From: Bodo saltans
Taxonomy: Eukaryota; Euglenozoa; Kinetoplastea; Eubodonida; Bodonidae
Direction: 5' to 3'
Length of the DNA stretch: 20,594 nucleotides
NCBI GenBank assembly: GCA_001460835.1
Contig: CYKH01000152.1
Span: forward strand, 1-20,594
A model generated the notes under the pieces. The model saw nothing but the letters and a program-made list of their open reading frames with translations, was not told where the DNA came from and did not search any database. The first letter of the stretch is position 1, and the number at the start of each line of letters is the position of its first letter. This document shows, piece after piece, positions 1,137 through 20,594 of the stretch. The position numbers and the translations under genes were made by a program.

Positions 1137-4100
1137 ATGAGCTTCAACGACAACAGCAGCTCTGCAGCAAATCGTCGAAGCGCAACGTCACTGTATCGCG
1201 AGTTCGGAATGATTCCCACTAGTGTCTCCACTCCGTCTCAATCATCACCTCTCGACTCTGCATCGTATCCGCTGGTGGAGCCGAGTACTGCCACCAGCGC
1301 ACGATCGTCGATGACCGGCGAAGTTGGAACCACTGCTCAGCTAAGCAGCAGCAGTAGTGCAGCAGCAGCATCGGTTGTGTCCCCTACTTCTCCCGTATCA
1401 TTATTACGACTGTGGCAACAAGTGGAAATGTGCAAAGACAATCCTATCCGTCAAAAGTCTATCATTGTGGACTCCCTCTACGAACCGTTTGTGACACAGT
1501 GTGTGTCGAGTGCGTCCGCCCCGTACCGTCAAGCCTTTGGTGACGGCTCATCGTTGGTATCCGTTCTATGCCGCCTGCTGTGCACAGACGCGCGGAGTTC
1601 TCTCAGAGCAGGATTCCCAGAGTGTGCCAGCACTGCAAAAGCGTTGCTGGATGAACCAACCCATATGATTATGTTGTCGTACTTCTCTACAATATGCGAT
1701 CCCACGTTTTTCCCAGGATCTGTTGAGCTGCGATACTTGGATTCTATTGTCCGTATTCTCGCTCTTCACAACATTCCGTCCATATTGATCTCGCTTCACC
1801 GCACGTTCTTGGATCTTGTCGAGGACGCAAAGCGAACGATTCACTCCACCATCACCCCTCAAATGGCCGCCGCAGACCAGAAATATTTGGCCCTGCTACA
1901 AAATTTTCTGTCCTTCCAGCACACCAATACACAACCGCTGCTTGCCGATATTTTACAAGTCAACGGTATTGTTCACATCGCAGAAACGATTTCGACAGCG
2001 CTGACAGTGCCATTCTGGGCAAGTGGATCGATTGCTGAGCTAGCCGCATCGATGCTGCTTTCCCTTCTCCACAGAAATGAGCTGAAGGCAGTTGCCTTTA
2101 GCGGGAGGGTTATCGAGGAGGTAGAAACTGTACTGGTCGACGGAATTCTCAAGGACGCTGACTCTGCCACCGAAGAATTCGGTGACGCGTCCAAATCTAC
2201 TTTAAAACTCACTGCCTTGACACAGTGCTTAGCTGTACTGCTCGCCCTTCGCAAGAATTTCTGCACCCCATTCAACGCCAATATCGACTTCGGTTTGGTC
2301 GTCACCGTGCTGCTTTCAATCCAAGAGTCGATGGCATCCCAACGTCGCTTGACGCAGCGTCTCTTAAGTATCTTGAACGATTTCATGGTGACCCCCCTTG
2401 GACCCTCAGGTCAAGGCGGTTCCAAATCAGACGGCTCAGGCTCAAGCAGCAGCGGTGGTGGTGGTGGTGGGAAGCAACCTGGTAAGGGATTTTCATTCTC
2501 AGCACTCGCGTCACACGTAGGGAAGATGGTAAGCTCTGCAGTGGCCTCTGGTGACAAGGCTAAATCCAACGACAACTCTGCATGGAAGGTCATTACCGCC
2601 TCACAGGTCGTAGAGGGCATGTGCCAATTTATTATTTGCGCCGCCAACGATGATGCAAGGATTCTTGTGGCCCAGAATTTATTTGAATTCCTACAAGTGC
2701 CAAAGAGCGTCGAGCCAGCATTTTTACTCACACAATTGACGTCGATTGCGGAGTCTGTACCAACGATGTCCCTCCATCTTCTCACAGAGTTCTTGCAAGT
2801 TGCCGAAGACGTTGCACACCGACATGACGCCTCTAATGTTCTCATCGTTTTGTCGAGGAAGCTCACGGACGTTGAGAATACACCAGAGCTGCACATTCTG
2901 AAACTGATTTCCTTTTTTGCGTCACTTGGCACACGATCGCATGTTGCAGCAAATGCCGTCCTAGCGTGCGGTGCGATCCGCAACTCCACCAAACTAGTTG
3001 AAATGATTGGATGCTTCTCCTGTGCAAGTGAATTGCTGCATCACATTCATCATCTGTGGATGACAGTGTGCAGAGTGCCTGGTTGCGCTGACCTGTTTGA
3101 GTCTAGTGGTACCGCAGAAGTGGTGACTCGTTCGATGCTATTCTTTGGATTGGCTCGTGCAGTTCGTCCGGAGCCAATGGGGAAAGGAAGCGTCACAAAC
3201 CGTATCCCAGCAACACCTCTGCAACCTCAAGCCCAACAACAGGCAGTGGAGGGCGCTCAACTCCGACGTGAGATCCTCAGAGTGTCAAGGGAGGCCCTTG
3301 CAACGCTTATCTCCACAAGAAGTAATGCAGTGCATGTTCTCCTTGACCGACTCTTGCAACACACTGGGAAGGTGGTATGGACCGATGAAGTATCGTGCTT
3401 GTTGGGAGCCCTCGCATACGTTCTGCACAGCGCCTCCGACAGCCGCTGTGCAACGGAGGCAATCAAAGGTAACGCGATCGAGTTGTGCTTGTCGCTCCTT
3501 CAGTCTGTGGAATCAGAAAACAATCGTGTGGATGAAGAAACAGCCCTGCTAAGCACTTGCCTCACCGCGATGCTCCCGTGTGTTCGGTTCAGTGAAGTAG
3601 GACGAATGCTTGCCGTGTCCATTCCGACATCGCTTGTTGGGTCAACTGCATTGTGCCAAATGTTAGCCGACCTATCCTTAGGCTCAACCCGAGATCCGCG
3701 GCATGTGGAATCTCTCCTCTTGTGGTATGATATTGTTCTCAGCGCTACTCCACTACAAGACCCGATCGAAGATTGGCGAACCTCATGGTCAGGCAGAATG
3801 CCCGGTGGAAGTGCAGCAGACAAGAAGTCTTCTAGCGCCGTGGATACATCATCCCCTGTGGCTTCCTTCCAAAGGTTAGGCAATGCTGTCGGCGGTAGCG
3901 ACGGCACCATAGGTCCCTTCGTTGTCCCTAGGAGCAAGAGATTCTTCTGTGAGTTGACATTTCCTTTGCTGGAGTTGTGTCGTTGGTACCGGGCGGAGGT
4001 GCTCAACGAGGAGATAACCATCGACTCCCCAGCCCGTCGACCCTCTCATTCTGTCCTCCCCACCACACCAGCGGCAGTGGTAGTGGAGCCTTCTGTGCCG

Positions 4101-7100
4101 TCACCTGCTGTGTCCCTCGAGGACCTCACTGCCTCTACGTTAGATATTTCGTCTGCTCAGGATGGTGTCACGCCCACCCGATCACAGCCACAGCAACATC
4201 TCGACGATGACGAAGCGTCGGTCTCGTCGCCACAGCGCCGCCCTTTGCGGAGACATTCACTTCGAGAACTTGCACAATTGGTCCGCGCAGTTGCAAGTCG
4301 ACTTGCAGCACCTCTCAGCGACCCAACATTCGCAGAGTTTGTCCTGCGACTAGGTCTCTATGACTTGGTTCCTTTCATTGCTAACGTGGCGGCATCTAAC
4401 GACCTGAAGCGGCATTTCTTCTTTGATGAGTCTACTCTGTCCGCTGCAATGTACAGCAACAACAACAACGCAGGTGTAACGCCCTCCACATCCTTCCAAG
4501 CTCTTGATCAACAAGAGTCGTTGGGTGCAACGACGACGATGTTGAACGACGGTGGAACACCAATCACAAACGCCCCAAAGAGAACATTAACGCAGCGGAA
4601 CCTCACAAGCAGCCGCCAAGTGCAGCTGTTCAGAATTATTCGAATGTGGCAAGCTGCGGTGGTGCCCAGAGTCGCCTTCAACCCAGACCGGAATACCCAG
4701 TCCGTCACAGATCGGAACGGCGGCGTTGGCTGTGCGGTAGGTAGCTCCACCACTGGGGTGGACCCGTGCCGCGTTGACTTCCCCCACCACATTCAATTCT
4801 TTGGATCCGGAGGCGCCGAGGGAGATGTACGGCGATGTGGGGAGGAGGGGTGGCCGTCCCCGGACGGTTACAGCGTCTGTGCCTGGTGCTGGTGGGTGGA
4901 CCTAGAGTCCGGAGGAGCCGATGGAGCTCCTCGCACAGAATTCAATGCAAATGCCCGCTCCACGACAAGCCGATCGGTTTTGCCGATATGGCAGTGTGAG
5001 TGGAGAGAACTCCCAGATCCTACGTCCCCTGTGAGCAACATCACATGCTACGTAGACCTTGTGGAAAAGAAAACGATGCTAGACATCTTGTACAACGCAA
5101 TCCACCACACAGTAGAGCTACCGCTGATTGCCCCTTCCACTTGGGCTCACATTGCAGTGTCCCATCAGCGGAATCGACTGTTTAACTCCGAAGTATCTGT
5201 GTACATGGACGGGGCGTTGGTGAAGAAAACAACGCTTACCTACCCCCTTACAGCACTCACGCAAGCAACAGGATTTTCTCCTTGTAAGCAGTTCCATTGC
5301 CGCCTCGGCTTCCCTGCGCAGCAACTTTCATCTGGACCGATGATCATGGGGGTTGAAGGGGACAACGCATCCATGACTCAGCATCGTGTTCAAAACTTTG
5401 CAAGGGGTGACGATACGATGCTAAGGTTGAAGCTTGGTCCATTCCAAGTGTACAACTCTCCGCTATCCCAAGCTTCCATTATGAGCCTTTTCGCCGCCTC
5501 GGTTCACAATTTGCAAGCAGGTCGATGGTTTGCGAACGGGGACGCCTCTGTGTCTACCAGTGCTGTGGTGTTTGATCGTGCCGTGCTGAATTTCCTTGCC
5601 GCATCCGCCTCGAATGATTTGCTACAGTCAACTGTCCAATCAGGGCAATGCAGCTTTGTTGCAGCGCCACAAAGCCGCGATACGCTTCTGGTCTCTGTGC
5701 ATCCCTCAGCCGCTGCACTAGCAGACGCTTCCTTCCGGTACTTGGACAACCATGATTGGACCTTAGTGAACTTGGCCGATGCTAGCTCTCGCAGCACATT
5801 CACTCTGTATGGCCCGCATAGCGAACCGACGGTTTCCTGTGTTGATGCCGCTCACGCTCTTGTGGCGTGTGGCGGGACAACCGAGTGGATGAACTGGCTC
5901 TCGATGATTACCGACATTGATGTGGAAGATGTTGACGACGATCCGCAAGCAGACGACACGGACGGCTGCGCCAGCGACAACGGTGAGCTCGACCTGAGCT
6001 ACAACGCGGCACTGACGACCCAAGAGAGTGTCTCGTGGGGCCTGACAACTGCTGTGGTCGCAAATAGCGCTAGCAATTCGCCATCAGGTGCGTGGTCACT
6101 ACGGAAGTTAGCTCGTGGGGCCATCAGTGTGATTGCATCGTGCGTGGCACGTGTCTCTGTCAAGGAGCTTCGCCATCGAGCGTTTTATTACAACATTGCA
6201 CTTTTGATTCGCAAGAATCCGAGATTGTTCCTGGTACCTAGCACCCCTAGCGACACGCACCTACCATTCGGTCGAGCACTCGACGGCACCATCAACTCAA
6301 CCACAACTCTTCCCACAAACTCTCTTGACGATGCCCGTGCGTTTGCCACCATCGCATCGTTGTGCTTTACTCTAGTTCACGCCGATGGGGCTGCCCTAGG
6401 CTCGAGAGCACTTACGGACGAGCAGATCTGTCGTCGTTCCCTACTCCTCCCTGTACTATCCAACACAGCGTTGTTTGAAATGGTGTTTGCCAAGACCTCC
6501 ATATGGGCGAACCTCCCCCACAGCAGCGCCATTTCCGTGTTGCAGTACATTGCCGTCGCATTGCACCCTGGCAATCGTTACCGCCGGCTGAATGCGCGCC
6601 GGATGCAGGCGAACGGGTTCATGACCAGCTTTGTCTATGGCATTGTTCGACATTACGTTCCACTTGCAGTTCTCCCCACAGTCATGGACACTATGTCAGC
6701 CTACATTTCTGCCATGGACGACGATGGCAGCACTGTGAGTGAAATTCTTACATTCCTTGCCGCATCGGTTCCTACAGGTGCGGAGGAGGACAACAGCGGT
6801 GTGGAGAAGCGTCTAGGGTCCAGACTAGCGATGGTCGCCCCGGAGTACATTGCCCTTGTCCGCAACTTGCTACTTAAGAGCATCGTTGAGCTTGCTGCGG
6901 TGCCAATCTCCTCTTCTGCAGGTGATACAGCGACTCCTTCCACTGGTGCTGCTGCTGCTGCTGCTGCTGCTGGAGCTCCAGTCGCCAACCGCACACTTCT
7001 TCAAACCATAGCGGAGGTGGTGCCGTTATCTTGGGTCCATGCCATGACCGGCCCCTACTCCCACCCAAGCACTGTGGCACTCGCACTGCAGCTTACCGTG

Positions 7101-10100
7101 GTCCTCTTGCAATATCAGCAACCTTTCCGCCAAAGGGCGGAACGATCGAATCTGCTGCATCTCCTCACTGTCAACTTATCTCACTACAGTCATCAGCCTG
7201 ATATCACATCGCTCCTCTTGCACGGGTTCCTCGGGCATTCCCGCGACGTGCTTGTGTTTCAAAGCGCGCTGCTGGACGATAACTTGGCACCCAATCCTCA
7301 CCGAGGCGTTCCATTCTTGATTCACTTAGTGATGTCTCTGCAGAAGTGCAACGCCATCAGCTCACGAGACCCTTCGCAAATCGAATCGGCCACTAAGTAT
7401 TACGATCAAGCGCCTGCATGCGCATATTTCTCGCAGGTCAACCGATTTATGTCTCGCGCCTCTGTTGTCCGAGGAGCACGTCGGTTGCGTGCAGTGATGC
7501 ATCTCGTCCGCTGTATTCGAATCTTGCAAAAGAACGTCGAGCTTGGACGCTCTCGGAGAGGCACCACTGCTTCTGCTTCTGTGGCGTCACCCGCCGGAGC
7601 GCATCGAGCTAGCAGCAGCACACAGCAACTTTCAACAGCTGATGTCACCACACCGGTCGCTAACAGAGCCTCAACACGGAGATGCGACTTGATGAGCCCA
7701 GCGGAGCATCAACGAAAGCTCCAGGACGAGTGCCTACGCAGAATGGACCTTGTCTCCCGCGTGCTCAACTGGGCAGCGTTTGCGTTCCTGAAGCACGATT
7801 ACGTGGCGTGTGCACTGTTCAATCCAGGTGCACTTTGTGCATCCAGCTCCGGTATTTCCATGTCCGCGTCGTCCTCGCTGCCCAACGGACTCAATCCTAC
7901 CGCCATTGCTTCCTTTCAAGCACTTCCACAGCTCTATGGCGAGACGTATCCCATCGACTTCCTATCGTGGATGGTGGTGTGTGCCTTAGGGCAAGCTGAC
8001 CCACTCCATGTAGTCTCCAACGGCAGCCAGTTACGAGGAAACCGTTTCTTGGAAACTGTGGCCGCCCCGGAGGCATCGCCCCAAGGGGCCACCGCCCCAC
8101 GTACAGGGAGCGACGATGATGAACCTGGTGATGGCTTTGGTGCTGAGGCAGCTCTCAGCGCCACATCTGGTGCCATCGACGGAGACGCATCACGTGGGGA
8201 TGCTGCTGCGACACAGTGCCGCAGTGCTGGACTTGACCGCCTCCCCCCTCCCGCATACGAGCCCCTTTTCCAAGCCTGCTGCAACATGTACGTCGCCATG
8301 ATGGAGCTTCAAGTCCGTGACTACGTCGCTATTTACGTGGGGAAACAAAATATCAAAACGTCTCCGTTTGCCCTTGTTTTGCATCACGTGCTGTGCCTGT
8401 GCCCCTCCGGCATCGGCGATGAGGCCGAGTCTTGGTACCACGCCGCACTAATCTCCCTGTGGCTACAGACCACCACACGAGCACTGCAACGACATAGCCT
8501 TCAGGGAGATCGTGGTCATCACCTGAGCAAGAATTGTGTCAGCGTTGGTCACTACGTTGTGGAGCGACTCCTGAGTGGGCTGCCAACGCCCCCAGGCGCG
8601 GTCATGGAGTTCTTGACGGTCCTCCTCGGTGCACTGCAGTATTCTGACCACATCAAGCAAACACGGCACCTTATCTTAGAGTGGGGTTGTTTCATTCTAT
8701 CCCCCAAGTTCCACAACAACAATCTGAAAGAGGCGCAAGTTGCTCGGGACTTGATCTTCACGCACCGCCATGTGCTGTTCGGTCCACATGTGTTAGGCCA
8801 GGCCACCATCGACGCACAGCGTCATCTCCTAGTCAAAATGCTTGAACTCAGCGCTGTATTGATTACCAACTACGATAGCACGCAAACACCTGAAGCTCAG
8901 CGCATTGCGGAGTTGTGGCTAACCGTCTTGCAAGCCATGAAGCAAAGCCCAGCACTTTCCTACGTCCTAGCAGAGGGTTGTGGGCTCGTCAAGACAAGCT
9001 CGTCTGCACATCATCACTACGACTTCCTGCACGGCGGGTTTGATATCCTCTACCACCGTATTGGTGCCACGTCCATGTTCCTGAGTTGGTTTGCCGACAC
9101 ACGTTACGCCATCAAGGACTATCTTACCCACCACGCGCCCGTTCAGCCATTCCATCAGTTGAAGTTACCACCCACTGCTGGGCTGGTGGTGTTGGGGAAG
9201 AAGTACATGAAGTGGGTCTGTGGCTCCGTCAAGCTTATGCAGAAGTCTCGATCGAAACAAGCACAGAAGGCAGAGTCGGCGGTGCTGCACGTGACACAAT
9301 CGTATGAAAAGTTGTTGTCGACGGGGACATTTGTAGACCCCAAGTTGTTACTCCAGCGAGACTACGCTAGGAGTGATGTTCTCGTGGTGGCGTCACCCTC
9401 CCCAGAGGAACTGCAGCAACAGGAGGAGTTGTACGAGGCAAGCACCAGCGCAACACACTGCCGTCCGGTATTTAAGAACTACTGGACTCCTCATGCTGGC
9501 GGTGTGCGCAGCACTCGTTGGTATGCCTCCGAAGCGCGTTCCCAAAGTCGCCTTGTGGACCTGAACGGTGAGCCTCTTGGTGTCTACTTTAGCGATGTGC
9601 CCGTTGCAATGGTTCCTCTGTTGGCAGGGTCAACTGTGGATGGAATGCACGTCCACCACCAGCCTACCATGAGCAACGCCAGCAACAACAGCGCTTCAAG
9701 CGCATCCCTTCCGCTGAATACGGCCGCTACGGGCAACACTCACGGGCTCAAACCGAATGCGATCCAAATTCTACACCGCATCCTCGATGCAGGCTCCGTG
9801 CAACCAAAGGACTCGAGAATCTTATGGATCGGTAATGTGTATTACATTGTTGGAACTGAGAGTGTCATCTGCACGTTGGTACTGACTCGTACCGAAATGG
9901 TGTGGATCAGCCACAGCCAAGCCACCAAGCATGGCGACTTCTTTATCACACAAATTGCAACGCATACGGCGGCAGATAAAGCGCACAAGAAACGGTCAGC
10001 TCCTGGCGCTGCTGCAATTGCTATTCAAGATGCAATTGGTCGGTTCCTTCCAAAAGCATCTGCATTTGTTGCCTCTGCCACAGGCGTCTCTTCCGCGAAG

Positions 10101-11213
10101 CTCGCGTCACTTTCCACACATCGACACTCCCAATACTACAGGCAGCTCAGGACTGAGGCACTCCAACGCGACCATGCGGCGTTTGTATCCGCCACGCCGC
10201 TCTCATCTCTCTCAGCAGCCCACCACCGCCGCTTCCAACATCAGAACGCAGCGCTAGAGGTGGCCTCAGAGTGTGGCGCATCGCACTTCTTTGTTGTTCT
10301 GGATCATGATATGAATATGACGAGTGATGCTCGTAACCGCCTCGCTGATGCGCTGCGCAGCACTCATTCCGGCATGATCATAGAAACAGAGAAGACAAAG
10401 GAAGCGAAGGTGCTGTCAGCGCAGAAGCGGTGGGTCAAAGGTGCGCTCAGTACTCGGTCGTATCTTGCTGTTCTCAACGATGCGGCGTCAAGGACCACAA
10501 GCGACCTGAGTCAGTACCCAGTGATGCCGTGGGTGCTCTCCCAGTACGATGAGATATTCGTGGACCTCAACGACCCATCAAACTATCGAGATTTATCGAA
10601 ACCAATGGGCGCCATTAACCCTGCCAATGCTGTTCAAATCAAACATCGTTTTGATGACTGGCCAGACGACACCCAGCCTCCCTTTCACTACGGAACCCAC
10701 TACAGTACCAGTGCAGTGGCGATGTATTACTTAGTGAGACTTGAGCCCAAAGTGGTCACCTCGCACGCCAATCAAGGAGGACGTCTTGACGTGGCCGATC
10801 GACTATTCCACAGTGTCGCAGAAGCGTGGCTCAGTGCATCGGGCGCAGGCAGTGACGTCAAGGAGTTGGTACCAGAGTTCTTCTCAACTGCATGCTGGGT
10901 GCGGAACGACAACAGCATCGCACTAGGAGAGCGCCGTGATGGTGTCTCCCTCAATCACGTCGTCCTTCCACCATGGTGTGGGGGAAGGCCCGATGTCTTT
11001 ACCGCGACGTTATGTGAGGCCATCGAAAGTGACACAGTTGGCGCTTCGATTCACGAGTGGTTCGATCTTGTGTTTGGATTCCGGCAGCGTGGAGAGGAGG
11101 CCGTCAAAGCGTTGAACATATTCCACCACTTATCCTACGATGAGGGGCTTGAGACAGCAATGGAGGCTGCGTCCAACGAAGAGGACCGAAACTGCATGCT
11201 GGGTGCGGAATGA
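1137..11213 (+). CDS. BEACH-domain protein, main 5' part (frame broken in BEACH domain)
   Basis: This encodes a very large neurobeachin/LRBA/LYST-like protein. That family works in vesicle trafficking and lysosome-related organelles, usually as a membrane-associated scaffold. The frame gives 3358 residues. Residues 1-90 are Ser/Ala-rich. A long alpha-helical, armadillo-like region follows, interrupted by low-complexity loops (Gly/Ser near 425-450, eight Ala near 1940). A ConA/laminin-G-like lectin module covers about 1220-1460, ending in a typical GPFQVYNSPLSQASIMSLFA strand. The DUF4704-like solenoid lies near 1800. A PH-BEACH module spans about 2885-3075. The BEACH domain starts near 3092 and shows the family signatures DLSQYPVMPW, RDLSKPMGA, PFHYGTHYS, YYLVRLEP, ADRLFHS, SDVKELVPEFF and HEWFDLVFGFRQRG. 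The start at 1137 is the first ATG after an A-rich leader. The last seven codons are out of frame because of the 304-bp duplication, so the BEACH end and WD40 tail are lost from this frame. Family assignment is firm; whether the break is real is not. Confidence 0.93.
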   Translation: MSFNDNSSSAANRRSATSLYREFGMIPTSVSTPSQSSPLDSASYPLVEPSTATSARSSMTGEVGTTAQLSSSSSAAAASVVSPTSPVSLLRLWQQVEMCKDNPIRQKSIIVDSLYEPFVTQCVSSASAPYRQAFGDGSSLVSVLCRLLCTDARSSLRAGFPECASTAKALLDEPTHMIMLSYFSTICDPTFFPGSVELRYLDSIVRILALHNIPSILISLHRTFLDLVEDAKRTIHSTITPQMAAADQKYLALLQNFLSFQHTNTQPLLADILQVNGIVHIAETISTALTVPFWASGSIAELAASMLLSLLHRNELKAVAFSGRVIEEVETVLVDGILKDADSATEEFGDASKSTLKLTALTQCLAVLLALRKNFCTPFNANIDFGLVVTVLLSIQESMASQRRLTQRLLSILNDFMVTPLGPSGQGGSKSDGSGSSSSGGGGGGKQPGKGFSFSALASHVGKMVSSAVASGDKAKSNDNSAWKVITASQVVEGMCQFIICAANDDARILVAQNLFEFLQVPKSVEPAFLLTQLTSIAESVPTMSLHLLTEFLQVAEDVAHRHDASNVLIVLSRKLTDVENTPELHILKLISFFASLGTRSHVAANAVLACGAIRNSTKLVEMIGCFSCASELLHHIHHLWMTVCRVPGCADLFESSGTAEVVTRSMLFFGLARAVRPEPMGKGSVTNRIPATPLQPQAQQQAVEGAQLRREILRVSREALATLISTRSNAVHVLLDRLLQHTGKVVWTDEVSCLLGALAYVLHSASDSRCATEAIKGNAIELCLSLLQSVESENNRVDEETALLSTCLTAMLPCVRFSEVGRMLAVSIPTSLVGSTALCQMLADLSLGSTRDPRHVESLLLWYDIVLSATPLQDPIEDWRTSWSGRMPGGSAADKKSSSAVDTSSPVASFQRLGNAVGGSDGTIGPFVVPRSKRFFCELTFPLLELCRWYRAEVLNEEITIDSPARRPSHSVLPTTPAAVVVEPSVPSPAVSLEDLTASTLDISSAQDGVTPTRSQPQQHLDDDEASVSSPQRRPLRRHSLRELAQLVRAVASRLAAPLSDPTFAEFVLRLGLYDLVPFIANVAASNDLKRHFFFDESTLSAAMYSNNNNAGVTPSTSFQALDQQESLGATTTMLNDGGTPITNAPKRTLTQRNLTSSRQVQLFRIIRMWQAAVVPRVAFNPDRNTQSVTDRNGGVGCAVGSSTTGVDPCRVDFPHHIQFFGSGGAEGDVRRCGEEGWPSPDGYSVCAWCWWVDLESGGADGAPRTEFNANARSTTSRSVLPIWQCEWRELPDPTSPVSNITCYVDLVEKKTMLDILYNAIHHTVELPLIAPSTWAHIAVSHQRNRLFNSEVSVYMDGALVKKTTLTYPLTALTQATGFSPCKQFHCRLGFPAQQLSSGPMIMGVEGDNASMTQHRVQNFARGDDTMLRLKLGPFQVYNSPLSQASIMSLFAASVHNLQAGRWFANGDASVSTSAVVFDRAVLNFLAASASNDLLQSTVQSGQCSFVAAPQSRDTLLVSVHPSAAALADASFRYLDNHDWTLVNLADASSRSTFTLYGPHSEPTVSCVDAAHALVACGGTTEWMNWLSMITDIDVEDVDDDPQADDTDGCASDNGELDLSYNAALTTQESVSWGLTTAVVANSASNSPSGAWSLRKLARGAISVIASCVARVSVKELRHRAFYYNIALLIRKNPRLFLVPSTPSDTHLPFGRALDGTINSTTTLPTNSLDDARAFATIASLCFTLVHADGAALGSRALTDEQICRRSLLLPVLSNTALFEMVFAKTSIWANLPHSSAISVLQYIAVALHPGNRYRRLNARRMQANGFMTSFVYGIVRHYVPLAVLPTVMDTMSAYISAMDDDGSTVSEILTFLAASVPTGAEEDNSGVEKRLGSRLAMVAPEYIALVRNLLLKSIVELAAVPISSSAGDTATPSTGAAAAAAAAGAPVANRTLLQTIAEVVPLSWVHAMTGPYSHPSTVALALQLTVVLLQYQQPFRQRAERSNLLHLLTVNLSHYSHQPDITSLLLHGFLGHSRDVLVFQSALLDDNLAPNPHRGVPFLIHLVMSLQKCNAISSRDPSQIESATKYYDQAPACAYFSQVNRFMSRASVVRGARRLRAVMHLVRCIRILQKNVELGRSRRGTTASASVASPAGAHRASSSTQQLSTADVTTPVANRASTRRCDLMSPAEHQRKLQDECLRRMDLVSRVLNWAAFAFLKHDYVACALFNPGALCASSSGISMSASSSLPNGLNPTAIASFQALPQLYGETYPIDFLSWMVVCALGQADPLHVVSNGSQLRGNRFLETVAAPEASPQGATAPRTGSDDDEPGDGFGAEAALSATSGAIDGDASRGDAAATQCRSAGLDRLPPPAYEPLFQACCNMYVAMMELQVRDYVAIYVGKQNIKTSPFALVLHHVLCLCPSGIGDEAESWYHAALISLWLQTTTRALQRHSLQGDRGHHLSKNCVSVGHYVVERLLSGLPTPPGAVMEFLTVLLGALQYSDHIKQTRHLILEWGCFILSPKFHNNNLKEAQVARDLIFTHRHVLFGPHVLGQATIDAQRHLLVKMLELSAVLITNYDSTQTPEAQRIAELWLTVLQAMKQSPALSYVLAEGCGLVKTSSSAHHHYDFLHGGFDILYHRIGATSMFLSWFADTRYAIKDYLTHHAPVQPFHQLKLPPTAGLVVLGKKYMKWVCGSVKLMQKSRSKQAQKAESAVLHVTQSYEKLLSTGTFVDPKLLLQRDYARSDVLVVASPSPEELQQQEELYEASTSATHCRPVFKNYWTPHAGGVRSTRWYASEARSQSRLVDLNGEPLGVYFSDVPVAMVPLLAGSTVDGMHVHHQPTMSNASNNSASSASLPLNTAATGNTHGLKPNAIQILHRILDAGSVQPKDSRILWIGNVYYIVGTESVICTLVLTRTEMVWISHSQATKHGDFFITQIATHTAADKAHKKRSAPGAAAIAIQDAIGRFLPKASAFVASATGVSSAKLASLSTHRHSQYYRQLRTEALQRDHAAFVSATPLSSLSAAHHRRFQHQNAALEVASECGASHFFVVLDHDMNMTSDARNRLADALRSTHSGMIIETEKTKEAKVLSAQKRWVKGALSTRSYLAVLNDAASRTTSDLSQYPVMPWVLSQYDEIFVDLNDPSNYRDLSKPMGAINPANAVQIKHRFDDWPDDTQPPFHYGTHYSTSAVAMYYLVRLEPKVVTSHANQGGRLDVADRLFHSVAEAWLSASGAGSDVKELVPEFFSTACWVRNDNSIALGERRDGVSLNHVVLPPWCGGRPDVFTATLCEAIESDTVGASIHEWFDLVFGFRQRGEEAVKALNIFHHLSYDEGLETAMEAASNEEDRNCMLGAE
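6948..6971 (+). repeat. (GCT)8 microsatellite encoding poly-alanine
   Basis: Eight perfect GCT codons in a row encode eight alanines in a disordered loop of the BEACH protein. A uniform codon run of this kind usually expands by replication slippage and is often length-variable between strains. Confidence 0.9.
10887..11190 (+). repeat. 304-bp direct tandem repeat, unit 1
   Basis: The first unit begins ACTGCATGCTGGGTGCGGAA and ends GAGGACCGAA. It encodes about 101 residues of the C-terminal half of the BEACH domain, including the HEWFDLVFGFRQRG signature. Unit 2 begins at the next base. The junction shows two bases of microhomology (AA). The unit length is not a multiple of three, so it shifts the frame by one. 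Confidence 0.97.
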
Positions 11214-11494
11214 CAACAGCATCGCACTAGGAGAGCGCCGTGATGGCGTCTCCCTCAATCACGTCGTTCTCCCACCATGGTGTGGGGGAAGGCCCGATGT
11301 CTTTACCGCAACGTTGTGTGAGGCCATCGAAAGTGACACAGTCGGCGCTTCGATTCACGAGTGGTTCGATCTTGTGTTTGGATTCCGGCAACGTGGAGAG
11401 GAGGCGATCAAAGCGTTGAACATATTCCACCACTTATCGTACGATGAGGGGCTTGAGACAGCAATGGAGGCTGCGTCCAACGAAGAGGACCGAA
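11191..11494 (+). repeat. 304-bp direct tandem repeat, unit 2
   Basis: The second unit has the same length as the first, with 11 substitutions and no indels by eye. Read in the BEACH frame, 10 of the 11 changes are synonymous; the remaining one is Val to Ile. After this unit the BEACH domain continues normally into NNFGLTPRQLF-type family sequence, here DNFGLTPRQLF. Confidence 0.97.
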
Positions 11495-13209
11495 AAGCAA
11501 TTGTCGCGTCGGTTGACAACTTTGGTCTGACCCCTCGACAACTTTTCTCAGTCCCTCATCCTGCACGTGCCATGATGGGAGGAGGATCTCACGCCGCCAC
11601 CAACACCGTGGGAAGTTCAGGGAGTCCGGCTGCAACTACCACCACCACAGCAGCAGCATCATCACCACAACAGCCACTTCCAGCATCCCCTGCACCTCGG
11701 CAAATCACATTTCTTGCCGCACTCGGTCAACTTGTGAAGCGAACTCAGCATTTTGTACTCCACGTCCCTGCATCCCCCATCTCCCATCAACGCCTCACCA
11801 ATGAAACCATTACGGAGGTGCAGCTGCTTGATTCGATGATTTACGCGTCGACCACCTCTGCAAAATATTGCGGAAAGAAAGCTATGCTGGTCGTGTATGT
11901 GGAGGAATCAAGCAGCAGCGTACACGTGTCGTCATTGGCATCCCCAAGTGGAGGAGGGCCCTCTGCAGCACCTGGCGGTGTGGCAGTGGCACAGAATGCA
12001 GGTGGTGGCGGTGGCAACAACAGTGCTGCCTCAGGCCAAGGACCTTCACAGAATTCTCTGTTCTCGGGAACAGGGTTAGTGCTCCCAGGCTGCACGTCTT
12101 TTGGGTCGGGATGGGTCACCTCAGTCTGCGCATCTGCGTGCGGCAATATTGTTGTTTGTGGCACCAATAAAGGGTGTGTGGTGGTGTACGGTCGTAGCAC
12201 TGCGGACAGCGCGTTCTCTATCTCCAACTTCATCTACGCCGCACAGGTGGGAGCGATGAAAGAGAAGAGTACCACCCTCAAGTCCCCAGTAGTAGCCACC
12301 AACTCCCCACCAACTCCGGCACCACCACCACCTTCGTCAGCGTCTCGAAGCCAAGGTCGTGTTCGTCTTGTTCAATTGTGGAACGATGGTCAGCTTCTTG
12401 TCTCAACGGAGCCTGGAACTCTCAGTGCATGGCACGTCACAAACAAAGCTGCGGCGTTCTGCTTTGCAGTGGACGTTGCAGCGGAGATTCATGATCACAC
12501 CGCCACTGTGCTGCAGCAGCAACGCAATCAGTCGTCAAGCTTTGATGCAACGACTGTGCTGATTACGACTGCGAGCTTCACTGTGCGGTCCCCACAAGTG
12601 TTATCGTCACTGTCGCCTGTTGCGCATGTCGTTCGATTTGTGTGCCGCGATGAAGAGCACAAACATTATTATGTTGCGACAGACCATCACGTGCTGGTGC
12701 TTTCGAGTATTGGGGCCGTGCTGTCAGTGCTTTGGGTGGAGGGAACCAACCCATTTGACCCCAACACTCCCTCGCAGCCTGCCCTCGCGGCATCCACGAT
12801 TCCGTCTGTTGGCCTTACATCATCGTCGGCATCCGCATCGTTCTCAACCCGGAGCAACGGAGCCCTTGGCTCTGCAGTATTGTCGTCACAGACACTTGTG
12901 GAGCCGATCACGTCTATTGCGTACTGCAACTTCAAGTGCCACTCCTCCATCAATGTTCTTATGTGCGGGCACGCCAATGGCTGTGCGTCGGTGTGGACTG
13001 TGTTCGCCGATGTCAGCCCATCAAGCCCCTCAATTCGTAGCATCCGCTTTCATAGCTGCTTAGCAGTGGAGAAGGGAACTGCAGTGACGAGCATTGCGCC
13101 AGTGATGGAGACGTCGATGGTGATCTTTGGGCTGTCAGGAGGCGGAGTGGTTGTGCTTGGTCTGCCGCCAAACGTGGTGGTGGAGGGTGGCGAGAGCGGC
13201 GCCAACTAA
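11191..13209 (+). CDS. BEACH-domain protein, 3' part: BEACH end and WD40-like tail
   Basis: This is the continuation of the BEACH gene in the frame shifted by the 304-bp duplication. It repeats the last 101 residues of the BEACH domain, completes it (DNFGLTPRQLFSVPHPAR), and then runs through Gly/Ser/Thr/Pro-rich linkers into degenerate WD40-like blades. Recognisable blades include VTSVCASACGNIVVCGTNKG, LWNDGQLLVSTEPGTLSAWH, ITSIAYCNFKCHSSINVLMC and the final AVTSIAPVMETSMVIFGLSG. A C-terminal propeller behind BEACH is standard for the family. The frame has no ATG between the duplication junction and 11464, so it is unlikely to be an independent gene. Counting 1137-13209 minus 304 gives exactly 3923 codons including the stop, which supports one original gene. 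A second, partial copy of this end lies at 19160-20122. Confidence 0.9.
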   Translation, partial: TACWVRNDNSIALGERRDGVSLNHVVLPPWCGGRPDVFTATLCEAIESDTVGASIHEWFDLVFGFRQRGEEAIKALNIFHHLSYDEGLETAMEAASNEEDRKAIVASVDNFGLTPRQLFSVPHPARAMMGGGSHAATNTVGSSGSPAATTTTTAAASSPQQPLPASPAPRQITFLAALGQLVKRTQHFVLHVPASPISHQRLTNETITEVQLLDSMIYASTTSAKYCGKKAMLVVYVEESSSSVHVSSLASPSGGGPSAAPGGVAVAQNAGGGGGNNSAASGQGPSQNSLFSGTGLVLPGCTSFGSGWVTSVCASACGNIVVCGTNKGCVVVYGRSTADSAFSISNFIYAAQVGAMKEKSTTLKSPVVATNSPPTPAPPPPSSASRSQGRVRLVQLWNDGQLLVSTEPGTLSAWHVTNKAAAFCFAVDVAAEIHDHTATVLQQQRNQSSSFDATTVLITTASFTVRSPQVLSSLSPVAHVVRFVCRDEEHKHYYVATDHHVLVLSSIGAVLSVLWVEGTNPFDPNTPSQPALAASTIPSVGLTSSSASASFSTRSNGALGSAVLSSQTLVEPITSIAYCNFKCHSSINVLMCGHANGCASVWTVFADVSPSSPSIRSIRFHSCLAVEKGTAVTSIAPVMETSMVIFGLSGGGVVVLGLPPNVVVEGGESGAN

Positions 13210-13337
13210 CAGAACACAGAGATTATGTGGTTATGTGAGATACTTTTTCTCAACAAGGTTTCGTTGTTTTTCTTTTTGCGGCATTGCAAGCGAATACTCT
13301 TCTGAAACAAAATAAATACATTTTGCTTGCTTACTTC
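12236..13337 (+). repeat. Dispersed duplication, copy 1 (BEACH 3' end and 3' UTR)
   Basis: This stretch recurs at 19160-20250 in the same orientation, at an offset of 6924 bases at the left edge and 6913 at the stop codon. The offset change comes from small indels in low-complexity codons. Homology starts abruptly at 12236/19160. It continues through the stop codon and the 3' UTR, then resumes in the kelch coding sequence after a 283-base gap in this copy. Confidence 0.95.
13210..13337 (+). other. BEACH 3' UTR and intergenic region, copy 1
   Basis: This short region holds a pyrimidine-rich tract (about 13259-13278) followed by AG at 13289-13290, a candidate acceptor for the downstream kelch gene. 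It is almost identical to 20123-20250. At 13334 it has C where the other copy has the G of a well-formed acceptor (TTTTTCTTGCTTAG), so that second acceptor is absent here. The kelch leader and the first codons are missing at the right edge. Confidence 0.6.
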
Positions 13338-14529
13338 CGTCAAGAACGATGTCTGGAAGTTTGACCTGACCACTGAGGAATGGTCACGAGTTGCCACTAC
13401 TGGCCCTGGTCCGAGACCATCGTTTGGGGCTGGGCACGTGCTGCTGAGCGACGACAGGCGTTGGCTCTTCTATGGCGGCCTCGGAATGCATGATGTCAAA
13501 TTGAGCTGTGTTCGTGTTCTGGATCTCGACACGATGGTGTGGTCCCGTGTCCCTCAACTGTGCACACATGCTGGAGATCGACTTCGGCGTGTGTGGGGGC
13601 ACAAAATCTCGTCAGTGACCTTGAATGGGAAGGGGAAGCTGATTATCTTCGGTGGAATGGAAGGGAACGATACCAACGATGACATCTACGTGATCGATGA
13701 AGCAACACTTCGCTTAGACGCGTCTCTATCTGTTACTGGCTCTCAGATGACGAGCCCTGATCATGTGCGTTCCAATGTCAAGAGCCGACGTTGCCATGGT
13801 GCTTGCACGTACCGCGACGTGTTCATCTTTATTGTCGGTGGCCGAGATCATCAACATTTTTTCAATGATATGTGGTGCTACAACGCCTTGCTGAACGAAT
13901 GGATTCCTGTGACCGAGTACGCCTCCCCCCAAGATATGCAGACGTATTTCGACAACCCGATACTGGCCGAGCCGGGAAGGCAAATCCGACAGAAATACGC
14001 GATGGCAGTGTCCCGTCATGCAGGGCTCCAACCACCGAGTTCTCTCCTCAGCAGCATGTGCCCGCGCACAGGGGTTTCCATGGTGATCTCTGGAGAGTAC
14101 CTGTACGTCACTGGGGGGTTCTTGTTCTTCCTTTTCGGCTCCACGAACTTCAACGACATGCATGTGTACAGTATCAGAGATCATCATTGGGAGAATGTAC
14201 AGTTACCTCGGAATTCACTTGCTGGAGGCGTCGACGATGACGTTTTGACTCCCACCTCGATCCCGGCCACATTCGATGTTTCAGCTCGCTTGCAAGTGGC
14301 TGGAGAGTATGGGTGCGACGTGCCCAAGCCATTCACGATGGCTTCCCTGGTTGAGTGGCCCCTATCACCCGGGCATCCTTCGCAACGCCAAGGCTCTCAA
14401 GCGATAGGCACGCAGTGGCTACTCTTTGGAGGCCGCATGGGAGACCACCCGCGTGCTGCACAGTACCGTGTTCGCATTTTTGAACCTTGGCGTCCACTGA
14501 CGTGGCTTGCTGCGAGGCCTCGTGGCTGA
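13338..14529 (+). pseudogene. Kelch-repeat protein, 5'-truncated
   Basis: The frame encodes about 397 residues of a kelch beta-propeller, a fold that usually mediates protein-protein contacts. Five Gly-Gly doublets mark the blades: FYGGLG (13474), IFGGME (13651), IVGGRD (13837), VTGGFL (14113) and LFGGRM (14428). Each is followed by blade sequence such as NDMWCYNALLNEW or NDMHVYSIRDHHW. The frame opens inside the last strand of blade 1 (VKNDVWKFDLTTEEW) and has no ATG until residue ~54, so the start and most of the first blade are missing. The other copy at 20337 carries exactly this missing part, which shows that 283 bases are absent here. The C-terminus may also be frameshifted, since an acidic tail follows in another frame. 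It could be a true pseudogene or an assembly join; the family call is firm. Confidence 0.85.
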
Positions 14530-14840: not shown

Positions 14841-15411
14841 TTCGTCGTGTCTGCTGCTAGGATGGACATTTACCTCTGCAACAAACGGTTGTGCTAAAAA
14901 AAAAAGGCGTCTGTTGATGTGGCTTGCTGCCTCGTGGCGCGGGCTTGTGAGCTTTCCATCGTCCGGCAGGGGGACGTCGATCCAACCGCTTTCAGCACAG
15001 CACGATTCCACGAGTTTATCGCAGGTGTTAGCACAGTAATAGGCTAGCTTTACGCAACTCAAGAGTCATCCATTACAATCCATGATGAGAGAAGAAGCCC
15101 CCAATCCCCAGTATTCTCGCGCGCTCTGGGGCCGTACTCCCCATCGGTAGATGGTGGCGAGTTCACTGCAGCTATGGCGCCGATGGATTGAGTCATCGTT
15201 CATGATTACGGCATTATGGAGCGCCTGTGTGAGATTAGACAGGTTGCTCTTTTTCGCCCTTGCTCATTTCCACAGCGATACTACATATTTCTTGCAAATT
15301 CTCTGGTGAAAATATCCGTAAGGACGTGAATGAAAGATAATTTTCGTTGAATTTGGCAGAAATTAAGAGAAGTCGACAATTTTTTCCCCCCTGCCTATTA
15401 GTTTCCTTTTC
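14841..15411 (+). other. Intergenic region before the membrane-protein gene
   Basis: About 570 bases without a supported gene. It contains a run of ten A near 14887. The right-hand third is AT-rich and ends in a clear acceptor before 15412. I found no tRNA-like or repeat structure and no similarity to other parts of the window by eye. Confidence 0.6.
15378..15401 (+). promoter_or_regulatory. Strong candidate trans-splice acceptor
   Basis: The tract ATTTTTTCCCCCCTGCCTATTAG ends in AG at 15400-15401, only ten bases before the ATG at 15412. This is the clearest polypyrimidine-AG acceptor in the window, and it supports both the start codon choice and a kinetoplastid origin. Confidence 0.6.
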
Positions 15412-18400
15412 ATGCCGTGTCTCAGCCCTGTCGATGCATTGCCTTGCGTCTCGCTAATGTGGCTCATTCTCGTGTTCCTCGCAGTCCAAGCCACCAACGA
15501 TGCCTGCACGAAGTGCTGCAATGCTGGTGATACACTTTTAGGGTCGGACTGCACTACCACAGTTCCCGCCTCGGACAACTGCCCTATTGGGTTTTCTCCA
15601 AGTGGCGGTCAGTGTGTTAATGCAGGTGCACGATGCTCGGGGCTCATTCCCACAATGTTAGCAAATATTGGTGCTTGTTGCTACGGAACTAAAAAGCCTC
15701 CAGCAAATACCGCTCCCGGCTTCTACTCGTGCAGGCCATTAGACCTAGGCCCAGGTGGGTATTACTGCAGGACATCGTCAGAGATTGGCTGCTACTCTGA
15801 CTTGGGGTCACCCTCTTCGTGTCCGTTGGGTAGTAGTGCAGATGGCAACGACTGTGTTAGCAGCTTGACCTACTCCTGCCCATCGGGTTACACACGATCA
15901 GGCACCACCTGTACTAATACTTATGCTGCCTTCACCATTACAACATCAACACAATGTAACAGAGCAAGTCCCGCTACAGATGGATGTCAGTGGTGCACAA
16001 ATGTCAGTGCATGCCTCCCTGATGCGGCGTCATGCCCTGCAAGCTGCTTGGTGACGCCTCAAGCCATGTGCAGCAACACTCCATCCGCGTGCCAGTGGTG
16101 CTCAGCCATTGGAGTGTGCCAAAAGGACTCCATCGGGTGCTTCGCGTCATGTCTTAACGCGACAACAGATTCTAGTATCTGTGATGCGAGCACATCGTGC
16201 AAGTATTGTACGGCCATTGGCGTGTGTCAACCCGATGCTGGGCTATGCTACGCAACGTGCTTGGCTGCTACTGCTGAGTCTAGCGTTTGTGATGGCAGCA
16301 CATCGTGCAAATACTGCTCGACGTCTGGATCCATCGGTGTGTGCCAACCCAACAGTGGAACGTGTTGGGCTACCTGCACGCCTGCATCAGACGACCTCCT
16401 TAGCTCTGCTCTATGCACAACAAGCGAAGACTGCAAGTGGTGCCCAACACTCAACTATTGCACGGAGCGGACACGTGACTGCCACACGCAGTGCACGACG
16501 GTTGCACCGGACGACCCTGCAATCTGCCAGGTGCAGTCTATTCAGTCACAGTGCCAGTGGTGCGGTGTGCCTGGGAGCGTCAAGTACTGCGTGGCGGTGA
16601 CGGAAGAGCCGCGGCTGCGATGTGCGGCGTCGTGTGCTGGGCTGATCTGGCGGCAGGACGTGTGCGACGGAGCGCTTGAGTGCCACTGGTGCGGCGTGCA
16701 CAACGCTGCGCAGGGTGGTCGGTGCAAGCCGCTTCCTGGGAAGAGCCGTGGGTACGTTGCGTGGCGGCGTGAAGTGGAGTGTGACACTGAGAGTGACACG
16801 GTCAGTTTCTCCGCGCTGCATTCCCTATCAGAATCGCCAATCATCAGTGCAAGTCGGTCATTCAACACGTCGACAAGCACGAGCCCCTCGTGGTCTATCA
16901 GCAAATCACGAAGCATTTCGTCCTCTCTGGGTAGATTGACACTGACGCCAACGAACTCTACTTGCCCAACCATGACGTTGTTGGTGACTGGACGAACCGA
17001 CAGTGTTTCGTTGAAACACACGACATCGCTTTCGGGCTTGACGACAAAGTCAGCGTCGCTAACCTTGACCCATGAGCTTACAGCGACGCGTTTCTATTCA
17101 CGGGATCAAACACTTGTCGAAGCCGTTGCGACGTATTTGGCCTTGGGACTCATCGTACCCTCAGTGGTTGGGGGAGGCATGATGACGAGCTCACTGAGCC
17201 GCGTGATAGCTGCCCGTAACCTCGGACAGTGCTGGGGCCAATCTGGCAGCTCTGTGTTCTCCCTCCCAATTGACGTATGCAGTTACTCTGCGAGCGATGC
17301 GGAGCAACTTGAAGGCCAGGGTGATGCCGTGGTTGGTGTGGTACTAGTGGTTTGCGGCGCATTGATCCTCACAGTGTGTGGCGTCGGTTATTGGAAATTG
17401 AAACAAACGTCTTTTTGGGTGACCGCAGGAGACTTGTCGCTTGTCAGTGTTCTTACGCCCCTGTGTGTTGCTGCGATTCCACTAGTTGTTGGTGGTGCGG
17501 TGACAACTGCTGTTGCCCCGACGTCATCTGATCATCCTCGCGCCAAGACTTGTGGCGCTACTGCCGCCCTTATTGCCGTGTGCTTTGTGCTGACGTTGCT
17601 CCTCATGATTGTCCTTGCGGTTGTACCGATGGCGACACCAGCTCTATTTGGGGTTGAATGTAGACGAGGCAAGCCTCTTCGAGACGTCGGTGACACTACA
17701 TCGTTGCTTGCTCGTGCGTTGACGTGGTTTCGTCGCAGCGGCCGACGCTGGTGGCACTGGGAGCCCATAGGTGCTGCCTCACCTAGCTCCTTGTCGCATC
17801 GCATGGTGCGTACCTTGCTCCTCGAGTACCGTGCGTTGTGGTACAGTGCTTTAGATTGCACAATTGTATGCGCAGTGTCTGTGCTTGGCTCGCTTGGTCC
17901 TTTCCTTTCATGGACCCCGTGCGTGGCGACTGGGGGAACTGTCACAGCAATATTTGCAGCGCAGTTGATTGTCTGCCTCTTGACCCAACCGATGGCAAGA
18001 CCCTTCGACTGGTACATTTGCAACGTTACGTTGACACTGACGTTGATGAGCAGTGTGCTACGAGTTGTGTACGGTGCATCGACTACAGACGATGAGCGAG
18101 AGGATCGTGGCGAGTTGTTAACAGTCGCGGCTGTTTTCGATCTCATGGTGAGCGTTGTGACCTTTGGCCCAATAGTTATTGATGCGATCGAACTTATCAA
18201 ACACGCTGTGGCGAAATGCAGAAGTCGGAAACATCATCACGAGGCAGTTAACGCTGATCAACATCATGACGTAGTACTGCTGCAAAACTATCAAGCTGAC
18301 GCTGGTGGCTATCACCCAAATGAAGGATGCTCGATGGAGCTACTCCATTTCGCCGACAGAGAGGAGCTCGTTGCGAGTGGATTAGTGGTTGAGGAGCAAC

Positions 18401-18594
18401 TCTTAGAAATGTTGTTTGAAGGAAATGTCGTTGAAGCGCAGCTTGCTGAGGGCCATGCTCAAGTGGACGAAGACGACGACCCCCTTCTCTTGGATGCGGA
18501 ATTGATGCCTACAAGCGTTGCGGTCATGTATGAGGACGGTCAAAATCGTGTCCCGTCAAATGCGTTGCTTGAGGCTTACGGGTACAACGACTGA
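15412..18594 (+). CDS. Cys-rich, multi-pass surface membrane protein (1060 aa)
   Basis: I do not recognise a named family; the architecture resembles large surface proteins of bodonids. Residues 1-27 form a signal peptide (hydrophobic core VSLMWLILVFLAV). Residues 30-190 are Cys-rich with short CPxG-type motifs. Seven Cys-rich units, each opening with C-x-[WY]-C, begin at residues 192, 227, 263, 299, 341, 381 and 424, at intervals of 35-43. A Ser/Thr-rich stalk with alternating Ser (SISKSRSISSS) follows at about 460-560. About eight membrane segments lie near 567-588, 638-661, 674-700, 713-745, 806-833, 840-862, 864-889 and 901-927. The C-terminal tail of about 130 residues is His-rich, then acidic, with an acidic-dileucine motif DDDPLL at 1021-1026. 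The layout suggests a large ectodomain, a membrane bundle and a cytoplasmic sorting tail. A sensory or adhesive role is possible but unproven. The start follows a strong acceptor directly. Confidence 0.88.
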   Translation: MPCLSPVDALPCVSLMWLILVFLAVQATNDACTKCCNAGDTLLGSDCTTTVPASDNCPIGFSPSGGQCVNAGARCSGLIPTMLANIGACCYGTKKPPANTAPGFYSCRPLDLGPGGYYCRTSSEIGCYSDLGSPSSCPLGSSADGNDCVSSLTYSCPSGYTRSGTTCTNTYAAFTITTSTQCNRASPATDGCQWCTNVSACLPDAASCPASCLVTPQAMCSNTPSACQWCSAIGVCQKDSIGCFASCLNATTDSSICDASTSCKYCTAIGVCQPDAGLCYATCLAATAESSVCDGSTSCKYCSTSGSIGVCQPNSGTCWATCTPASDDLLSSALCTTSEDCKWCPTLNYCTERTRDCHTQCTTVAPDDPAICQVQSIQSQCQWCGVPGSVKYCVAVTEEPRLRCAASCAGLIWRQDVCDGALECHWCGVHNAAQGGRCKPLPGKSRGYVAWRREVECDTESDTVSFSALHSLSESPIISASRSFNTSTSTSPSWSISKSRSISSSLGRLTLTPTNSTCPTMTLLVTGRTDSVSLKHTTSLSGLTTKSASLTLTHELTATRFYSRDQTLVEAVATYLALGLIVPSVVGGGMMTSSLSRVIAARNLGQCWGQSGSSVFSLPIDVCSYSASDAEQLEGQGDAVVGVVLVVCGALILTVCGVGYWKLKQTSFWVTAGDLSLVSVLTPLCVAAIPLVVGGAVTTAVAPTSSDHPRAKTCGATAALIAVCFVLTLLLMIVLAVVPMATPALFGVECRRGKPLRDVGDTTSLLARALTWFRRSGRRWWHWEPIGAASPSSLSHRMVRTLLLEYRALWYSALDCTIVCAVSVLGSLGPFLSWTPCVATGGTVTAIFAAQLIVCLLTQPMARPFDWYICNVTLTLTLMSSVLRVVYGASTTDDEREDRGELLTVAAVFDLMVSVVTFGPIVIDAIELIKHAVAKCRSRKHHHEAVNADQHHDVVLLQNYQADAGGYHPNEGCSMELLHFADREELVASGLVVEEQLLEMLFEGNVVEAQLAEGHAQVDEDDDPLLLDAELMPTSVAVMYEDGQNRVPSNALLEAYGYND

Positions 18595-19159: not shown

Positions 19160-20122
19160 ACGCTGCACAGGTGGGATCGATGAAAGAGAAGAGTACCACC
19201 CTCAAGTCCCCAGTAGCCACCAACTCCGGCACCACCACCACCTTCGTCAGCGTCACGAAGCCAAGGTCGTGTTCGTCTTGTTCAATTGTGGAACGATGGT
19301 CAGCTTCTTGTCTCAACGGAGCCTGGCACTCTCAGTGCATGGCACGTCACAAACAAAGCCGCGGCGTTCTGCTTTGCAGTGGACATTGCAGCGGAGATTC
19401 ATGATCACACCACCACTGTGCAGCAGCAGCAGCAACGCAACCAGTCGTCAAGCTTTGATGCAACGACTGTGATCATCACGACTGCGAGCTTCACTGTGCG
19501 GTCCCCACAAGTGTTATCGTCACTGTCGCCTGTTGCGCATGTCGTTCGATTCGTGTGCCGCGATGAAGAGTACAAACATTATTACGTTGCGACAGACCGT
19601 CACGTGCTGGTGCTTTCGAGTATTGGGGCAGTATTGTCAGTGCTTTGGGTGGAGGGAACCAACCCATTTGACCCCAACACTCCCACGCAGCCTGCCATCG
19701 CTGCATCCACGATTCCGTCTGCTGGCCTTACATCTACGTTCTCAACGCGGACGTTCTCAACGCGGAGCAACGGAGCCCTCGGCTCTGCAGTGTTGTCGTC
19801 ACAGACACTTGCGGAGCCGATCACGTCCATTGCGTACTGCAACTTCAAGTGCCACTCCTCCATCAATGTTCTTTTGTGCGGGCACGCCAATGGCTGTGCG
19901 TCGGTGTGGACTGTGTTCTCCGATGTGAGCCCATCAAGCCCCTCTATTCGTAGCATCCGCTTTCATAGCTGCTTAGCAGTGGAGAAGGGAACTGCAGTGA
20001 CGAGCATTGCGCCGGTGATGGAGACGTCGATGGTGATCTTTGGGCTGTCAGGAGGCGGAGTGGTTGTGCTTGGTCTGCCGCCAAACGTGGTGGTGGAGGG
20101 TGGCGAGAGCGGCGCCAACTAA
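19160..20122 (+). pseudogene. BEACH-gene 3' fragment, second copy (WD40-like tail)
   Basis: This repeats the last 320 or so codons of the BEACH gene and ends at the matching stop codon. It has no upstream solenoid, PH or BEACH sequence: the homology begins at 19160 with unrelated DNA to the left. Near 19211-19228, two losses totalling 14 bases in the Ser/Thr/Pro linker shift the frame. Residues matching MKEKSTTLKSPV are therefore in one frame and everything from about 19229 to the stop is in another. After that the frame is fully open for about 297 codons and differs from copy 1 by scattered substitutions, several in-frame small indels (an extra Gln codon, and a doubled 15-base unit near 19735-19764) and conserved blade motifs. 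It lacks a usable start and looks like a pseudogene fragment, unless the left edge is an assembly join to an intact gene. Confidence 0.85.
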
Positions 20123-20227
20123 CAGAACACAGAGATTATGTGGTTATGTGAGATACTTTGTCTCAACAAGGTTTCGTTGTTTTTCTTTTTGCGGCATTGC
20201 AAGCGAATACTCTTCTGAAACAAAATA

Positions 20228-20247
20228 AATACATTTTTCTTGCTTAG
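20228..20247 (+). promoter_or_regulatory. Candidate trans-splice acceptor for the intact kelch start
   Basis: The tract TTTTTCTTGCTTAG ends in AG at 20246-20247, 89 bases before the ATG at 20337, with no ATG between. An alternative acceptor follows the upstream pyrimidine tract, with AG at 20202-20203. In copy 1 the AG of the first site reads AC. Confidence 0.45.
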
Positions 20248-20336
20248 TTCGCGTTACCTCACAACCATTACGTCTTTGGGTGCACACTAATTGCTGCAAC
20301 AGACACTTTCAAGAACTTAACTCGCGCAGCATAGTG

Positions 20337-20594
20337 ATGATGATGGCACCGCCTCAGGTAGGATCTCCCTTTGACGGCCACCGCGCGTTCTTCACTGCTG
20401 CAAGCGGATCATCACAATTTACTTTCTCGAGTCCTGCGCCGTCTGCGCCGTCAGCGCGCAGTGGTCATGCTATGGTGTACTGTAAGTATCTCCATTGTGC
20501 GTTTATGTGCGGAGGCCTGGGCTTTGGCAACAACGTCAAGAACGATGTCTGGAAGTTTGACCTGACCACTGAGGAATGGTCACGAGTCACGACT
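20337..20594 (+). CDS. Kelch-repeat protein, N-terminal part (runs off window)
   Basis: A frame opens with three consecutive ATG codons at 20337 and is still open at the window end after 86 codons. The first 40 residues are a Ser/Pro/Ala-rich leader (SSPAPSAPSARS). A complete first kelch blade follows: SGHAMVYCKYLHCAF, then the Gly-Gly doublet in FMCGGLGFGNN, then NDVWKFDLTTEEWSRV. From codon 67 on (20534) the sequence matches the kelch frame that starts abruptly at 13338. This is the intact 5' end of the gene truncated in copy 1 and would complete a six-bladed propeller with the five blades seen there. A GTAAGTAT string inside blade 1 resembles a splice donor but is simply coding here, since the blade reads through. 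Confidence 0.8.
   Translation, partial: MMMAPPQVGSPFDGHRAFFTAASGSSQFTFSSPAPSAPSARSGHAMVYCKYLHCAFMCGGLGFGNNVKNDVWKFDLTTEEWSRVTT

Follow-up and report, generated by a model that had tools for sequence, protein, structure and literature searches.

A BEACH gene split inside its conserved domain by a probable assembly artefact

The window, that is, the whole stretch of DNA analyzed here, is the entire contig C73 of the Bodo saltans assembly (20,594 nucleotides; CYKH01000152.1), and the genome sequence searched alongside it comprises 29.3 Mb in 934 contigs. The window carries the following features.

1137..11213, + strand: 5' portion of the BEACH gene in the first frame, running from the ATG at 1137 to the stop and covering Pfam Beach positions 1-251 of 276
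10886..11189, + strand: unit 1 of a 304-bp repeat, end of the BEACH domain, version 1
11116..13209, + strand: 3' frame of the BEACH gene, with Beach positions 158-276 of 276 and the C-terminal tail
11190..11493, + strand: unit 2 of the 304-bp repeat, version 2, with 11 differences, 10 of them at third codon positions
11211..11213, + strand: TGA stop reached by the first frame past the junction
13306..14529, + strand: kelch-repeat gene, which relative to the second copy (next line) lacks 283 bp (20251-20533) at 13337/13338, start included
19160..20250, + strand: partial second copy of the BEACH gene tail plus the spacer behind it (94.4% identity with 12236-13337)

Comparison of the sequence with itself placed two adjoining direct units at 10886-11189 and 11190-11493 with a period of exactly 304, which bears out the adjacent units proposed in a sequence-only reading of this DNA. 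Two bases match past the 304 period, so that a start of the repeat at 10887 or 10888 is equally valid. The units are not identical, a point on which that reading was silent, and differ by 11 mismatches and no gaps (96.4% identity). Since mononucleotide shuffles of the stretches surveyed in the same assembly (see below) contained no abutting repeats of at least 100 bp, the 304-bp repeat is not due to chance. A search for an RNA element or a tRNA at the repeat site found none.

The open reading frames confirmed that 304, not being a multiple of three, changes the frame and leads to a stop at 11211-11213. The first frame is open stop to stop over 1116-11213 (3365 codons), with the ATG at 1137, and ends at this TGA, while the second is open over 11116-13209 (697 codons). 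The arithmetic offered for 1137-13209 likewise holds, with 12073 - 304 = 11769 = 3923 x 3. Pfam analysis matched positions 1-251 of the 276-position Beach model in the first frame (E 4.6e-82) and 158-276 in the second (E 2.8e-31), confirming that the gene is split inside the domain and identifying the part of Beach common to both frames as the repeated piece. At the thresholds used, solved relatives were limited to neurobeachin (1mi1) and LRBA (1t77). The first frame aligns with their chain residues 132-377 and the second with 298-414, so that residues 298-377, a piece that each of the two proteins has once, match both frames.

Like these BEACH proteins, the window gene has a Beach domain, here split over two frames; in contrast to them, it gave no hit to the PH_BEACH model at E 0.01 and none to a WD40 model close to the cut-off. 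Specifically, the PH-like domain PF14844 gave no match at E 0.01 before Beach, and the best WD40-type Pfam models on 11593-13206 reached E values of 0.12 and 0.54, far below their cut-offs, so the WD40 identity previously assigned to the tail is not established by Pfam. From residue 3013 onward, the window gene aligns with the BEACH gene of contig C403, which has the PF14844 domain. At four other BEACH loci of the genome (C279, C36, C403 and C833), the Beach domain is whole in one open frame, in C833 in two adjoining pieces.

Substitutions between the repeat units and between the tail copies

Ten of the 11 differences between the units fall at third codon positions (P 1.3e-4 in a binomial test with an expected share of 1/3), and the eleventh, Val to Ile, is the sole amino acid change. 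When the same 11 changes were placed at random, a mean of 7.4 amino acid changes resulted, compared with the 1 observed (P 1e-4; 20,000 trials). Between unit 1 and unit 2, dS was 0.158, dN was 0.004 and dN/dS was about 0.03; the copies, putative alleles, thus differ as two functional haplotypes would. Because the differences are nearly all synonymous, the units appear to have diverged while both coded for a working protein. This signature of purifying selection, read from the sequence, points to divergence within two working gene copies that then came side by side; the placing would have happened after the divergence, in the cell or in the computer.

At 19160-20250 the tail copy sets in abruptly, the sequence before it being unrelated, and a 14-bp gap lies close to its start. 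Relative to 12236-13337, substitutions number 13, 6 and 21 at the three codon positions, plus 3 beyond the stop, with a dS of 0.099, a dN of 0.031 and a dN/dS of about 0.3; this weaker constraint neither helps nor excludes a haplotype reading. Of the three mismatches in the spacer, two are no more than 13 bp from the break at 13337/13338. The tail copy and the missing 283 bp may stem from a genuine tandem duplication, from additional misjoins or from a combination of the two. Also in the window, an open frame at 15367-18594 (1075 codons) is cysteine rich, contains by eye a membrane-spanning-like stretch and had no Pfam match up to E 5.

Abutting repeats elsewhere in the assembly

We surveyed 20 other stretches of the assembly, chosen nonrandomly: nine were taken from contigs that carry BEACH genes, one from contig C516 for its match to the region downstream of the window BEACH gene, and ten arbitrarily. 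Three of the 20 were all N and five partly N, which left 145,751 readable bases, 1,289 of them counted twice where two stretches on contig C36 overlap. Six further abutting two-copy repeats of at least 100 bp were found, about 1 per 24 kb, with periods of 118-353, identities of 94-100% and a BLAST gap between the copies of -4 to +11 bp.

C1: abutting repeat, period 224
C36: abutting repeat, period 347
C74: abutting repeat, period 353
C194 (locus L026, 7787-8299): abutting repeat splitting a second BEACH gene, period 253/256
C279: abutting repeat, period 118
C403 (locus L020, 9475-9949): abutting repeat inside a third BEACH gene, period 237

These six were all of the direct-repeat pairs of at least 60 bp found in the survey, two shorter pairs having been left out. 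The 10 arbitrarily chosen stretches alone yielded two abutting repeats in 52,779 bases. By comparison, no abutting repeats were found in 15 tiles of 10 kb (150 kb) from the finished genome of Escherichia coli K-12 MG1655, a control that tests the scan and not kinetoplastid biology. With the window included, the period was divisible by three in one of seven cases, as expected if coding is irrelevant. No period reached 400, although the scan itself was limited only by the length of the stretch. Exact counts gave junction overlaps of 2, 1, 3 and 2 bp in four cases and an 11-bp spacer in a fifth.

The repeat in the C194 BEACH gene shows a codon bias of the same kind as that in the window, but weaker. 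Nine of its 13 substitutions are at third positions (P 0.009), with one 3-bp indel, and they cause 4 amino acid changes, compared with 8.6 at random (P 0.005; dS 0.149, dN 0.022). The repeats elsewhere that are 99-100% identical contain 0-2 substitutions each, too few for a test of codon bias. The frames at the C194 locus run from 2026 to 8049 and from 7994 to 9388, and an additional in-frame stop, at 9389-9391, precedes the Beach domain. The 237-bp repeat in the C403 gene is in frame, adding 79 residues downstream of the Beach domain, and its copies have one difference.

Twelve further loci, found by searches, were scanned for repeats of at least 80 bp. Three were detected, one being the C403 repeat again and the other two new (locus L039 on C385, 3204-3367, and locus L042 on C112, 2646-3020). 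The new repeats, of 82 bp and 182 bp, are abutting or nearly so and lie near a paraflagellar-rod gene and the site of actin primers; paraflagellar-rod genes had nine matches in the genome sequence. The primer pairs published for qPCR of B. saltans PFR2C and actin (PMC12018706) both fit the genome sequence with no mismatch and in facing orientation, at loci L038 and L042. A spliced-leader pattern, looked for as a kinetoplastid marker, had no match, a negative result for that single pattern.

Origin of the repeat and comparison with known assembly errors

The near-purely synonymous differences, the recurrence at about 1 per 24 kb and the published assembly method together favor an assembly error as the most likely source of the repeat, a verdict that we infer from these three lines. 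We put at roughly 0.88 the probability that the repeat is an artefact of the "duplicated overlapping contigs" type, in which contig ends from two versions of a gene, most likely haplotypes, were joined end to end. A shared 304-bp piece of a single BEACH gene would have lain at the ends of two contigs, each built from a slightly different version; read pairs would have linked both ends, which would then have been joined end to end and not merged. The sequence up to 11189 would thus derive from one version and that from 11190 on from the other, and since 304 is not divisible by three, joining them would shift the frame and introduce the stop. The versions are probably alleles or haplotypes; paralogues, or a culture of two strains, would fit equally well.

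The B. saltans Konstanz assembly is described as 39.9 Mb in 2,402 scaffolds, produced from Illumina 500-bp and 3-kb libraries with Velvet (insert setting of 400), SSPACE, GapFiller and IMAGE (PMC4728078). The 29.3 Mb searched here are probably a filtered subset of that assembly; the contigs whose lengths were seen all exceeded 10 kb. Periods below 400 fit the 400-bp Velvet insert setting, and a scaffolding or gap-filling step would, we infer, have made the join. The authors of GapFiller ascribe the enlarged genomes produced by IMAGE most likely to the extension of scaffold edges and give a default overlap of 10 nt for their own program (PMC3446322). The junction overlaps here are shorter than that default, so the GapFiller step is not established as the maker of the join. 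Two further observations count against an artefact: REAPR was run on the published assembly, yet the join was kept (PMC4728078), and a DNA search of the 934-contig, 29.3-Mb genome sequence found no second copy of the BEACH core elsewhere. A biallelic knockout has been described in B. saltans, which is treated as diploid in that report (PMC9544060), and the main text of neither PMC4728078 nor PMC2621209 contains the string "heterozyg".

We consider it unlikely that the repeat is a real recombinant. Under this reading, version 2 came to lie behind version 1 in one haplotype by recent unequal recombination or end joining between diverged alleles (or tandem paralogues), which broke that copy and left the other allele functional. 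Such an event between diverged copies would leave the same synonymous pattern, short junction overlaps are also typical of end joining, and a second partial copy of the tail of the gene lies on the same contig. However, one such event would be needed roughly every 24 kb, in many genes and always giving two abutting copies of less than 400 bp, and the E. coli control has no such repeats. Somewhat less probable still is a general form of this explanation, whereby the junctions are real, haplotypes or subgenomes of B. saltans are in places about 15% apart at synonymous sites and frequent end joining creates gene-breaking duplications about every 24 kb, each with an intact partner allele.

An old disabling tandem duplication, in which one unit gave rise to the other, the gene lost its function and the two then diverged by drift, would account for the frame shift and stop that the contig does carry. 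Decay after gene breakage would ignore codons, whereas 10 of 11 changes are at third positions with a dN/dS of about 0.03, and both frames are otherwise open over 3365 and 697 codons; we rejected this very improbable explanation on the codon pattern. Least credible of all is a functional frame switch, or one gene read as two polypeptides with about 100 residues in common. In its favor, each frame is open over a long distance and the shared piece hardly differs at the protein level; against it, the same structure occurs at other loci of the assembly and the split falls inside a Beach domain that is whole in the four other BEACH loci.

The sequence-only reading had left a disabling mutation, an allele and an assembly error as options. 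The data favor assembly error, with the units probably alleles, and do not support a disabling mutation. The predicted loss of the C-terminus of the protein stands for the contig but probably not for the organism, in whose living cells the BEACH gene is probably uninterrupted.

B. saltans serves as the free-living comparison for the parasitic trypanosomatids (PMC2621209, PMC4728078). Where gene models of this assembly appear truncated, split or newly duplicated, a search for abutting repeats below about 400 bp should come before any inference of gene loss. If the rate seen in the survey applied everywhere, there would be about 1,200 junctions in 29.3 Mb, an extrapolation from 145,751 nonrandom bases. 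A dS near 0.15 between units is also a hint of two well-separated versions of some genes in the culture that was sequenced, a point of interest should it be confirmed. We make no claim that such an artefact in the B. saltans assembly is unreported.

Duplicated overlapping contigs are a class of false segmental duplication described by Kelley and Salzberg in 2010 (PMC2864568). In that class, adjoining contigs keep the same heterozygous stretch at their ends, so that two nearly identical copies lie next to each other with differences like those between haplotypes; adjacent near-identical copies are likewise seen here (period 304, 96.4% identity). To adjacency and near identity the present analysis adds recurrence across the assembly, with 6 repeats in 145,751 readable bases compared with 0 in 150,000 of E. 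coli. The window repeat differs from that class in that its copies abut without a gap. Kelley and Salzberg make the call by mate pairs, which should fit better once the contigs are merged. False gene gains caused by assembly duplication errors likewise spoil gene content (PMC9516828); that report concerns vertebrate assemblies, whereas the present case involves a 304-bp gene fragment in a protist.
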